A DNA stretch of 64,000 bases, from assembly GCA_028718185.1 (NCBI GenBank), contig JAQUMH010000001.1, positions 157,186 through 221,185 on the forward strand. The letters are read 5' to 3'. Below, one piece after another: positions 8,561 through 18,809 of this stretch. Position 1 is the stretch's first letter. Every line of letters begins with the position of its first letter. The stretch is from Elusimicrobiota bacterium (GTDB taxonomy: Bacteria > Elusimicrobiota > UBA8919). The notes under the pieces are model-generated. The model made no database searches, had not been told where the DNA came from, and saw only the letters and a program-made list of their open reading frames with translations. Made by a program: the position numbers and the translations under genes.

Positions 8561-8750
8561 ATCCGGGGACACAACACTTGATTTTTAACCAAGTAAGCGT
8601 GCCTAACGGCAGTCAGGCTCGGCAAATACAACAACGACCTTTTACTTTAGACCCTTCGCCTTTAGCTCAAGGGTGACATCAAGCCCTATATTAAAGAGGA
8701 CAGTGACTTTTTATTAGGACAATTAGCAGGGTAAGACCCTGCAGCTACGA
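8561..8750. repeat. Repeat cluster upstream of hsdR (element remnant, nested palindrome half, REP)
   Basis: Three separable repeats lie here. 8561-8580 is copy 2 of the GGGGACACAATACT-type motif. 8594-8625 carries a decayed version of the nested palindrome seen intact at 23334-23375 (TGCCTAACGGCAGTCAGG, then CTCGGC). 8725-8748 is a minus-strand REP-like hairpin: a GTAG head, then arms GCAGGGT/ACCCTGC around CTT. No gene is seen in the 8522-8816 gap. Confidence 0.6.
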
Positions 8751-14375: not shown

Positions 14376-14516
14376 GCACGCCAAGGGCGTGCGACTACAA
14401 CTTAAGGCAAATTCAAAACAACAACAACAACTAACAACAAGCCGAGCAAGCTCGGCAACTACAAATTAAGAACAAAAAATAATCTTTAATTTGAGGGTGA
14501 GCAGGCTCACCCCTAC
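14376..14516 (-). repeat. Three REP-like hairpins
   Basis: 14376-14398: GTAGTC head, GCACGCC/GGCGTGC arms. 14441-14462: GTAGTT head, GCCGAGC/GCTCGGC arms. 14495-14516: GTAG head, GGGTGAGC/GCTCACCC arms. The first overlaps the alternative GTG start of pdxJ. Confidence 0.7.
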
Positions 14517-15722: not shown

Positions 15723-17054
15723 TTAAAAATCTACTACACTGGCGATTTCTTTTGCGTATTGGTTTATTGTATTGTCATCAGGTCCTTCTACCATTATTCT
15801 TAGAAGGGGTTCGGTGCCGGAATACCTGACAAGCACCCTGCCGTCGTCTTTAAGCTTTTCTTCAACTGCTTTTATAGCGTCACTTAATTTTTTATTTTCT
15901 GCAATCGGGATTCTCTTTGTTACTTTTACATTTAAAAGGATTTGCGGATATTTTTTAACAATTTTTGATAGTTCCGAGAGCGTTTTTCCGCTTTTCTTAA
16001 CTATAGATGCAATCTGGAGAGAAGTCAAAAGCCCGTCGCCCGAATTCATATAATTTTTGAAAATGACATGACCCGACTGCTCGCCCCCTAAAATAACATC
16101 ATTCTTAACCATCTCGTCATAAACATATTTATCACCTACGGCGCTGCTATAAACTTTTACTCCGTCTCTTTCCATTGCTTTGTAAAAACCGAAGTTTGAC
16201 ATAACAGTTGCAACTACGGAATTATTTTTTAGTTTTGAATTTTTTCGCAGGTGGTCGGCGACAATAGCTACCTGATAATCGCCGTCCCTAACTTCACCTT
16301 TTTCATCGACAAATATGCACCTGTCACCGTCACCGTCATACGCAATTCCGAAATCCGCTTTATTATCAAGCACTGCTTTCTGAAGATTTCTTAAATGAAG
16401 GGAACCGCAATCCTTATTGATATTTTTGCCGTCAGGATTAGCAGAGATAGTGACTACACTTGCTTTCAAATCAGAAAACAATTCATCTGCAATCTTATAA
16501 TTTGAACCATTGGCACAATCAATGATAATTCTCATTCCTTCAAAATCCGAAACATCATCTAACGTCGAACATAAGAATTTTAAATACGATTTTTCGGCAA
16601 GAGTGTCCCGGTGCAATATTTTACCTGTTTTATTCTCAGATACAACTATATCTTTATTCAAAAGCTTTTCTTCAATCTGCATCTCTATTTCATCGGCAAT
16701 TTTGATACCTGAATTGGAGAAAAACTTTATTCCGTTAAACTCCGCGGAATTATGTGAAGCGGATATAACACAACCGGCAGATGAACCTCTTTTTGAGGTG
16801 AGATATGATATTGCAGGAGTTGAAATAACACCGCAATCAAAAACATTTACGCCGGCAGAATTTATGCCTTTTGAAATAATTTCCGATATCCACAAAGAAG
16901 ACTCGCGGGTGTCCCTGCCTAGAACAAACTCATGTTTCTTAGAACCATTAAGGCTTAGCGCAGCGACATATCCTATTTTCTCAATAAAATCCGGTACAAG
17001 AGGATACTTACCTGCAATACCTCTTATCCCATCAGTGCCAAAAAGTTTTTTCAT
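15723..17054 (-). CDS. glmM: Phosphoglucosamine mutase
   Basis: GlmM interconverts glucosamine-6-phosphate and glucosamine-1-phosphate, following GlmS in UDP-GlcNAc synthesis. The start MKKLFGTDGIRG is family-typical, so I place it at the ATG at 17054; the in-frame extension upstream is repeat-derived. The catalytic phosphoserine loop is SASHN, the Mg2+ loop is DGDGDRC and the C-terminal phosphate-binding loop is RYSGTEP. Length (443 aa) is normal. It follows cdaA and the mini-cdaR on the same strand. In Firmicutes GlmM binds and inhibits CdaA, so the order suggests the same partnership. Confidence 0.97.
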   Translation of the reverse strand: MKKLFGTDGIRGIAGKYPLVPDFIEKIGYVAALSLNGSKKHEFVLGRDTRESSLWISEIISKGINSAGVNVFDCGVISTPAISYLTSKRGSSAGCVISASHNSAEFNGIKFFSNSGIKIADEIEMQIEEKLLNKDIVVSENKTGKILHRDTLAEKSYLKFLCSTLDDVSDFEGMRIIIDCANGSNYKIADELFSDLKASVVTISANPDGKNINKDCGSLHLRNLQKAVLDNKADFGIAYDGDGDRCIFVDEKGEVRDGDYQVAIVADHLRKNSKLKNNSVVATVMSNFGFYKAMERDGVKVYSSAVGDKYVYDEMVKNDVILGGEQSGHVIFKNYMNSGDGLLTSLQIASIVKKSGKTLSELSKIVKKYPQILLNVKVTKRIPIAENKKLSDAIKAVEEKLKDDGRVLVRYSGTEPLLRIMVEGPDDNTINQYAKEIASVVDF

Positions 17055-17110
17055 AAAAGACCACAGAACTGACACAGAACTAATACACGGAACTGACACA
17101 GAACTAAAAC
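17055..17110. repeat. Iterated tract between mini-cdaR and glmM
   Basis: About 50 nt made of near-repeats of GACACAGAACT and related units, between the mini-cdaR stop (17122) and the glmM ATG (17054). It belongs to the family of short iterated tracts seen across the window, and it may have separated glmM from a once longer cdaR. Confidence 0.55.
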
Positions 17111-17121
17111 TTCTGAGTCAC

Positions 17122-17220
17122 TTACTTGCTGAGCCTTTGCTTGACTATCCATAAAAGTATGGCTAGGATTATGGAGAGGATTTTTGCATCAAGATTTTTT
17201 TTAAACCACTTTATTTGCAT
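17122..17220 (-). CDS. Minimal CdaR/YbbR-like membrane peptide (32 aa)
   Basis: This short ORF starts 20 nt inside the end of cdaA and encodes a charged Trp-containing start (MQIKWFKKNLDAKILS), one hydrophobic helix (IILAILLWIV) and a short basic tail. The pattern W-x-x-KN-x-x-x-KILS-x-x-LA-x-x-LW is the N-terminal anchor of YbbR/CdaR proteins, the membrane activators of CdaA. Normal CdaR carries several extracytoplasmic YbbR domains; here the stop follows at once and I see no YbbR domain in any frame before glmM. Its place between cdaA and glmM matches the cdaA-cdaR-glmM operon of Firmicutes. It may be a functional minimal partner or a truncated relic. Confidence 0.7.
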   Translation of the reverse strand: MQIKWFKKNLDAKILSIILAILLWIVKQRLSK

Positions 17221-17992
17221 TATCGGTTATCCTTCTTCTTAAAAAGTATTTTTCGGATTTTTTCCACCTGTCAATTAAAAGTTTGCCAAGGTCGTCAATA
17301 CCTATACCGCTATCAAGTTTTCCGTTTTGCGAAATTGATATTATTCCTGTCTCTTCTGACACGATAATAACAAAAGCGTCGGAGACCTCAGTAATACCGA
17401 TACCGGCACGGTGCCTCGTTCCCCAGAATTTTGAAATTGTAGGATTTTCAGATGAAGGTAAAATACACGCAGCGGCAATTATTTTTGAACCCGCAAGAAC
17501 AACTGCCCCGTCATGTAAAGGTGTTCGGGGATTAAATATTGTAAGTAAAAGTTCTGACGTAATATCACCGTTGATTTTAACACCTTTTTCAATAATATCC
17601 CTTAATCCCGTCTCCTGTTCAACAACTACAAGCATTCCCATTTTTTTATTAGAACATTCCCTGACTGCAGCTATTAGTTCTTTTATTGCTGTTATTTCTT
17701 CCCTCATGAATAAACGTGTAATTTTTCCGCTCCCAAGCTGAGCCAGCGCAGAACGGATATCAGGCTGGAAAACTACAACAATTATTACAACTCCTGCAGC
17801 CCAGAAATTTTTCAAAAGCCATGCAGTTGTTTCAAGTTTCAGATAAATCGCTATTATAGTTATAACTCCAAGTACAACTATCCCCAATATAACCTGAACG
17901 GCACGTGTGCCCTTAACTAAAACTATCAGTCTGTAAAATATATAAGCAAGGACTACAATATCAACAATATTAGTTAAAATTTCTTTATACAT
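17201..17992 (-). CDS. cdaA: Diadenylate cyclase CdaA (c-di-AMP synthase)
   Basis: CdaA makes cyclic di-AMP from two ATP at the membrane. The 263-residue protein has three N-terminal transmembrane helices (about 8-26, 33-51, 61-76) and a DAC domain with the catalytic DGA motif (161-163, in LHDGAVV) and the RHR motif (193-195, in GTRHRAG). It overlaps folP by 8 nt and the mini-cdaR by 20 nt, which indicates a tightly coupled folP-cdaA-cdaR-glmM operon. In other bacteria c-di-AMP controls potassium and osmolyte transport; a cation/proton antiporter with a TrkA_C-like tail lies at 34536-35999, but no link is shown. Confidence 0.96.
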   Translation of the reverse strand: MYKEILTNIVDIVVLAYIFYRLIVLVKGTRAVQVILGIVVLGVITIIAIYLKLETTAWLLKNFWAAGVVIIVVVFQPDIRSALAQLGSGKITRLFMREEITAIKELIAAVRECSNKKMGMLVVVEQETGLRDIIEKGVKINGDITSELLLTIFNPRTPLHDGAVVLAGSKIIAAACILPSSENPTISKFWGTRHRAGIGITEVSDAFVIIVSEETGIISISQNGKLDSGIGIDDLGKLLIDRWKKSEKYFLRRRITDNANKVV

Positions 17993-18782
17993 TTTTTATC
18001 GCCTCAAAAACAGTGATTGCTCTTTTAATTTGTAAAACGTCGTGAACCCTTATATAATCCGCATCATTTATTAACGAAAAAATTGATGCGGCTATTGTGC
18101 CTTCTAAACGGTTAGAAGTATCCACGTTCAATAACCCGCTGATAAATGATTTCCTGGACGGACCTACCATAACCGGCAATTTTAATTTTTTGAATTCTGA
18201 AAGATTTTTTAATATCAAAAGATTGTGTTCAAGTGTCTTTCCAAATCCTATGCCAGGGTCCAATATCATTTTTTCTTTTTTAATTCCCTTCTTTTCTGCA
18301 AACTCTACCTGATTTTTAAAAAAATCATTAATATCCGCAATAACATCTTTATATTCCGGGTTCTTCTGCATAGTTTGCGGGGTTCCCTGCATGTGCATAA
18401 TTATGACAGATACCTTTTTCTTAGATACTATATCCGCCATTTTCCCATTCTTCCACCTGAGACCGTAAATATCATTTACTATTTCTGCGCCTTCATCAAT
18501 AGCATTTGATGCAACTACACTTTTATAGGTATCAATTGAAACAGGTATTTTACTGAATTTCTTTTTTATTTCCCTGATGACCGGTATGACTCTTTTTGTT
18601 TCTTCTTCTTCTGATACTAAAACACTTCCCGGCCTGGAAGACTCGCCGCCAACATCAATTATATCCGCACCGTCTGATATTAGTTTTTCCGCTTGTTTTA
18701 AAGCATCACTTATTGAAAAGAACTTTCCGCCGTCCGAAAATGAATCAGGTGTTACATTCAAAATACCGACTATTTTAACCAT
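17985..18782 (-). CDS. folP: Dihydropteroate synthase
   Basis: FolP joins 6-hydroxymethyl-dihydropterin pyrophosphate to p-aminobenzoate in folate synthesis. The 265-residue TIM barrel shows GILNVTPDSFSDGGKF (pterin and phosphate binding), DVGGESSRPG, a conserved IIMHMQGTPQTM, DPGIGFGKT and VGPSRKSFI. I chose the ATG at 18782 rather than a TTG two codons upstream. It leads the operon into cdaA (8-nt overlap). folE lies just upstream, beyond a repeat-filled gap. Confidence 0.96.
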   Translation of the reverse strand: MVKIVGILNVTPDSFSDGGKFFSISDALKQAEKLISDGADIIDVGGESSRPGSVLVSEEEETKRVIPVIREIKKKFSKIPVSIDTYKSVVASNAIDEGAEIVNDIYGLRWKNGKMADIVSKKKVSVIIMHMQGTPQTMQKNPEYKDVIADINDFFKNQVEFAEKKGIKKEKMILDPGIGFGKTLEHNLLILKNLSEFKKLKLPVMVGPSRKSFISGLLNVDTSNRLEGTIAASIFSLINDADYIRVHDVLQIKRAITVFEAIKNV

Positions 18783-18809
18783 ATTCAAGTTAATGCTACA
18801 TAAAACATT

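Follow-up and report, generated by a model that had tools for sequence, protein, structure and literature searches.

Results

Genes and spacers around cdaA

The window, i.e., the whole analyzed stretch of 64,000 nucleotides from an Elusimicrobiota bacterium, carries a short open reading frame between cdaA and glmM (Table 1). It reads from ATG to TAA and encodes the peptide MQIKWFKKNLDAKILSIILAILLWIVKQRLSK; the preliminary description of this DNA had claimed a 32-residue, anchor-only reading frame at this place, and the frame, its neighbors and the profile search below bear this out. The arrangement ftsH-folP-cdaA-peptide-glmM-pdxJ was found to be kept in relatives.

Table 1. Location of genes and sequence elements in the cdaA-glmM region of the window.
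Feature	Position	Strand	Basis
glmM, phosphoglucosamine mutase	15723..17054	-	Pfam; PDB GlmM chains to 2.8e-119
67-nt spacer from peptide stop to glmM; two 24-nt tandem units at 17062-17109	17055..17121
Anchor-only CdaR-like membrane peptide, 32 aa	17122..17220	-	Open reading frame, relatives, selection, profile match
Predicted membrane helix, residues 9-27	17140..17196	-	Position statistics; AF2 helix in related chains
20-nt overlap of cdaA 3' end and peptide start, in different frames	17201..17220	-
AGAAGG, probable ribosome-binding site of the peptide gene, within cdaA	17231..17236	-	Sequence
cdaA, membrane diadenylate cyclase, 263 aa; HDGA, GTRHRAG, and SEE motifs	17201..17992	-	Pfam, alignment, PDB relative
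folP, upstream gene	17985..18788	-	Synteny in relatives

The cdaA product belongs to the CdaA class, since it has both the CdaA_N membrane domain (Pfam, 2.2e-7) and a DAC domain (4.1e-41) with the DGA and RHR motifs. Residues H160, D161, G162, A163, R193, and H194 were invariant in the CdaA alignment. A full-length relative was found in the PDB (9g69_C), and Foldseek matches were confined to the DAC domain. The nearest named relative found was the CdaA of Elusimicrobia bacterium RIFOXYD2_FULL_34_15, which is 71% identical to that of the window.

An iterated tract had been reported directly after the peptide stop codon, and it is real (Table 1). In the family of the window the spacers between peptide and glmM were between 1 and 196 nt long and unrelated in sequence; the tract is therefore a variable spacer and not the remnant of a longer gene. 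The spacers of the window (17055-17121) and of loci L002, L006, L007, and L008 consist of short words that are iterated and then recur in inverted form (e.g., CACGAATAAA.. and then ..ATTCGTG), the word being different in each genome. A dispersed repeat around CAAGCTCGGCAACTACA was present in eight near-copies in the window, where none is expected by chance. These are located at 8614, 9735, 14447, 15680, 18910, and 23360 on the forward strand and at 18809 and 59319 on the reverse strand; at least the copies near 14447, 15680, and 18910 are intergenic.

The peptide resembles the membrane anchor of CdaR

A profile made from 51 peptides, none of them from the family of the window, was run over the 1717 six-frame open reading frames of the window. 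The peptide was the sole credible match (E = 1.2e-6, compared to E = 0.75 for the runner-up) and is thus not a chance reading frame. Position statistics placed the conserved residues N9, K13, S16, A20, and W24 within the predicted helix.

The external test set consisted of the six-frame open reading frames of eight cdaA loci, seven from records of Bacillota plasmids or chromids and one from a faecal "phage" contig. With a profile made from the peptides only, the top seven matches were all CdaR N-termini, which scored 31.8, 16.9, 16.0, 13.3, 12.8, 10.4, and 7.8 bits, while no other reading frame scored above 6.5 bits. The matched gene directly follows cdaA and is named a CdaR family protein in the annotated records. 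At the eighth locus (L199) CdaR was not matched by the peptide profile. The single matches were mostly weak (7.8 to 17 bits); the pattern was specific. This result supports the identification as the N-terminal anchor of YbbR/CdaR that had been proposed.

Among the separate peptides, Lys was found at position 13 in 54 of 58, Ala or Ser at positions 16 and 20 in all 58, and Trp at position 24 in 57. Ala or Ser also occupied positions 16 and 20 in 17 of 17 anchors that are fused to CdaA (see below). Small residues made up 4% of the remaining core positions of the separate peptides. K13, A/S16, A/S20, and W24 are thus kept in separate and fused anchors, and largely also in CdaR of Bacillota, where the anchor has the pattern K-xx-[AS]-xxx-A-xxx-[WYF] in common with the peptide. 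K13, A20, and W24 lie on the same side of the helix and A16 is near them; small-xxx-small is a usual signature of helix packing.

No YbbR domain (PF07949) was found in the peptide gene, the locus or the genome. Because PF07949 alone is insensitive in this phylum (the YbbR domain of genome G170 was missed at 21.1 bits with a cut-off of 22.3 bits), we used a second, phylum-specific YbbR profile. Over the genome of the window PF07949 gave no match and the phylum-specific profile gave none at E <= 0.1, so that the lack of a YbbR domain, originally noted for the locus, extends to the whole genome. The same two profiles ruled out that a complete CdaR lies in a different frame or at another site in the genome. 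The PF07949 count of 3 of 199 is a lower bound, and one of the matches is in G008, a genome without CdaA. The peptide matches no Pfam or NCBIfam family, and annotation is therefore likely to overlook it or to leave it without a name. The anchor profile matched no PDB chain credibly.

The peptide thus has two of the features that mark the CdaR/YbbR family, the CdaR-type membrane anchor at the N-terminus, seen by profile and position statistics, and a place for its gene between cdaA and glmM within the cdaA operon. It lacks another, at least one extracytoplasmic YbbR domain, and is therefore not to be called a standard CdaR. The natural fusions described below lend indirect support to a further feature of the family, binding to the membrane domain of CdaA. 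It is typically about 30 residues long, compared to open frames of 364-524 residues for the CdaR genes of the external loci. By its sequence it is probably an anchor-only derivative of CdaR, working like the CdaR anchor. It is unlikely that the resemblance arose by convergence, in a small membrane peptide that binds CdaA and works like the anchor but does not derive from a CdaR. Transmembrane helices converge easily, only 16-20 positions were compared and most external matches were weak. However, the locus, the gene order, and the polar and small positions are all shared with CdaR, the best seven external matches were without exception CdaR N-termini, and the phylum contains chains in which YbbR comes after an equivalent anchor.

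Distribution among Elusimicrobiota

The phylum set comprised 341 genomes, 221 with and 120 without a DAC domain. The 221 were classed by combining several scans with loci that were read, a separate peptide being counted at a profile E <= 1e-6. About 152 had a separate anchor peptide. A further 42 made up family f18, where the anchor was fused to the C-terminus of CdaA without YbbR in 15 of 15 informative loci read, and two genomes (family f6, genus g62) had an independent CdaA-anchor fusion. Thirteen belonged to groups with CdaA-anchor-YbbR fusions (f20, f13, f16, and f28); not every one of these 13 was read, and one was cut by a contig end. In two genomes cdaA was decaying and the peptide match was weakened. 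The last ten (families f11, f14, and f27) had cdaA but no anchor detectable by profile search, and the peptide is therefore not strictly required and may be dispensed with in some backgrounds. At the f11 loci L136, L137, and L147 cdaA has moved directly upstream of a gyrB-like gene and the anchor peptide is gone. A scan of genome contigs with the CdaA sequence reached one relative and a scan of viral contigs none; the anchor-only survey accordingly covers the Elusimicrobiota.

Strong profile matches were found in 153 of the 221 genomes with a DAC domain and in one of the 120 without (Fisher p ~3e-41, a descriptive value that ignores relatedness). In the single exception, G130, 12 nt separate the peptide from a contig end and glmM-pdxJ follows directly downstream, so that the cdaA of this genome was probably lost in the contig gap. 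Three reduced genomes (0.7-0.8 Mb) with a broken cdaA gave weakened peptide matches only (E 2e-7 to 1.5e-4); in G105, G109, and G113 (loci L153, L154, and L156) these are located just downstream of the broken gene.

The DAC-less genomes tested, those of f4 together with G008, still encode GlmM (E down to 1e-122) and have no peptide, which indicates that the peptide tracks CdaA rather than GlmM. CdaA and the peptide appear to be gone from nearly the whole of family f4, with about 100 genomes in the phylum set, and GlmM to be kept there. A role in serving GlmM instead of CdaA, by membrane recruitment or by translational coupling into glmM, is consequently improbable, even though glmM comes immediately after the peptide gene in many genomes and the two have stayed together where the operon was split. 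This was the case in G014 (L134 and L135), where folP-cdaA followed by a pyrB-like gene is on one contig and peptide-glmM-pdxJ on another. Conversely, f6 and part of f3 have cdaA and the peptide gene without an adjoining glmM, spacers of 67-196 nt make coupling to glmM unlikely in much of f1, and the natural fusions are to CdaA.

Natural fusions of the anchor to CdaA

In the 15 f18 loci read (e.g., L108) the anchor forms the C-terminal helix of CdaA. The same organization was found in two species of genus g62 (L071 and L202). Like the peptide, these fusions have no YbbR domain and end a few residues past the Trp or Tyr, but their anchor is a covalent part of CdaA while that of the window is a free peptide. 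In the open-access literature searched we found no description of a CdaA that naturally carries an additional membrane helix of this kind, i.e., an anchor without YbbR, at its C-terminus.

CdaA, anchor and YbbR were found in one chain in f5 (second copy), f13, f16, f20, and f28. These chains share K13, A/S16, W24 and adjacency to CdaA with the peptide, but differ from that of the window in belonging to a separate CdaA clade and in retaining one YbbR domain. Such chains were read at loci L093, L095, L107, L111, L115, L118, L121, L123, L127, L130, and L205, and several score below the PF07949 cut-off. Genome G011 has two kinds of CdaA, one accompanied by a 30-residue peptide and another that carries anchor and YbbR in its own chain.

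In a CdaA tree made by a quick method with SH-aLRT support only, the fused CdaAs of f5 (second copy), f13, f16, f18, f20, and f28 formed a clade (100% SH-aLRT), and the other clade contained the CdaAs of Bacillota together with those having separate peptides. The anchor-only f18 proteins nested among the YbbR-bearing ones, which suggests that YbbR was lost in f18 independently of the separate-peptide clade; the internal branches were weakly supported, leaving the number of YbbR losses uncertain. The g62 fusion, which fell within the separate-peptide clade, adds one more case of fusion. Given the anchor-only fusions of f18 and f6 and the chains that keep YbbR, reduction to the anchor alone probably happened at least twice.

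Since the anchor is fused to the cytoplasmic DAC domain, its N-terminus should face the cytoplasm. As dissociation is impossible for a fused anchor, a structural subunit is a better fit in f18 than a regulator that acts reversibly. With moderate confidence, AF2 predicted the C-terminal anchor of an f18 fusion to be helical at residues 259-287 (pLDDT 59-73), and a read-through chain of CdaA and the peptide to have a helix at 262-283 (pLDDT 69-74); both predictions bear on the helix itself and not on its interface with CdaA.

The peptide might also be kept for another membrane complex or as a regulatory leader, its tie to cdaA being operon hitchhiking, as its contact with CdaA is one that we infer. 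This is very improbable, since in-chain fusions to CdaA occur in two separate CdaA clades and the peptide is absent wherever CdaA is absent.

Conservation of the free peptide gene

The preliminary description had left open that the gene is a truncated longer one and proposed a comparison of cdaA-glmM regions. A 32-residue anchor-only reading frame follows cdaA in seven of seven other genomes at the family level; none of them has a full CdaR, and the phylum-specific profile found no YbbR in them. Across the phylum we read 80 distinct loci with a separate anchor-only peptide of 24-64 residues (most 27-38), none with YbbR. The commonest start was an ATGA-type overlap with the cdaA stop codon. Outside the cdaA overlap, pooled pS was 0.74 and pN 0.14, showing purifying selection. 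In two relatives the peptide stop is 1-6 nt from glmM, which leaves no room for a lost tail. Hence truncation is rejected, and the reading of the peptide as a functionless relic of a cdaR gene, for which the tract after the stop codon in the window could be cited, is in effect already refuted by these sequence comparisons, with pN far below pS, conservation over more than 15 families and spacers of so few nucleotides.

Discussion

We consider it likely that the peptide is the membrane anchor of CdaR without YbbR, made from a translationally coupled gene and acting as a small membrane subunit of CdaA. The peptide would insert into the membrane with its N-terminus in, and the face formed by K13, small16-xxx-small20, and W24 would pack on the bundle of three helices at the N-terminus of CdaA. 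In this subunit role the peptide may set the assembly or activity of the c-di-AMP cyclase. Membrane insertion, physical contact with CdaA and a constitutive, i.e., non-sensing, role are what we infer for it. The anchor helix may then be all that is left, or all that is needed, of CdaR in most Elusimicrobiota.

The locus resembles the cdaA-cdaR-glmM operon of Bacillota, where CdaR (YbbR) likewise sits between cdaA and glmM. Binding of YbbR/CdaR has been placed on the membrane region of CdaA (PMC6368335; PMC8573169; PMC8316131), and PMC8573169 refers to work in Listeria from 2020 on the membrane contact between CdaA and CdaR. In Staphylococcus aureus a suppressor of delta-ybbR alters Gly78 in TM3 of the cyclase (PMC5207132). 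The CdaA-GlmM complexes PDB 9g69 and 7olh contain the two proteins encoded on either side of the peptide (CdaA at full length in 9g69), and neither has a chain that the anchor profile matches credibly.

Reports on full-length CdaR/YbbR conflict between activation and inhibition (PMC5207132). For the proteins of B. subtilis in E. coli, CdaR was reported to activate CdaA (PMC8316131); activation was suggested for Chlamydia (PMC12422730), while a ybbR transposon mutant of S. aureus had raised c-di-AMP (PMC11520302) and no conclusive effect of CdaR was seen in PMC6368335. The mode of CdaR control over CdaA is stated to be unclear (PMC8573169). The sequence evidence presented here supports a partnership of the peptide with CdaA and is neutral on activation or inhibition. 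In the open-access literature searched, with subscription papers mostly outside, neither an anchor-only CdaR nor any c-di-AMP study of Elusimicrobiota was found.

Survival of the anchor alone together with its fusion to CdaA in one phylum suggests that what matters is the membrane helix. We find it evenly balanced whether the core function of CdaR is that of a single membrane helix, which in Elusimicrobiota would be a near-obligate cyclase subunit, reduced at least twice and fused at least twice, with YbbR as an optional sensor. With about 30 residues, the peptides of Elusimicrobiota would be ready-made minimal constructs, and the conserved helix face (K13, A/S16, A/S20, and W24) is offered for comparison with CdaR of B. 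subtilis.
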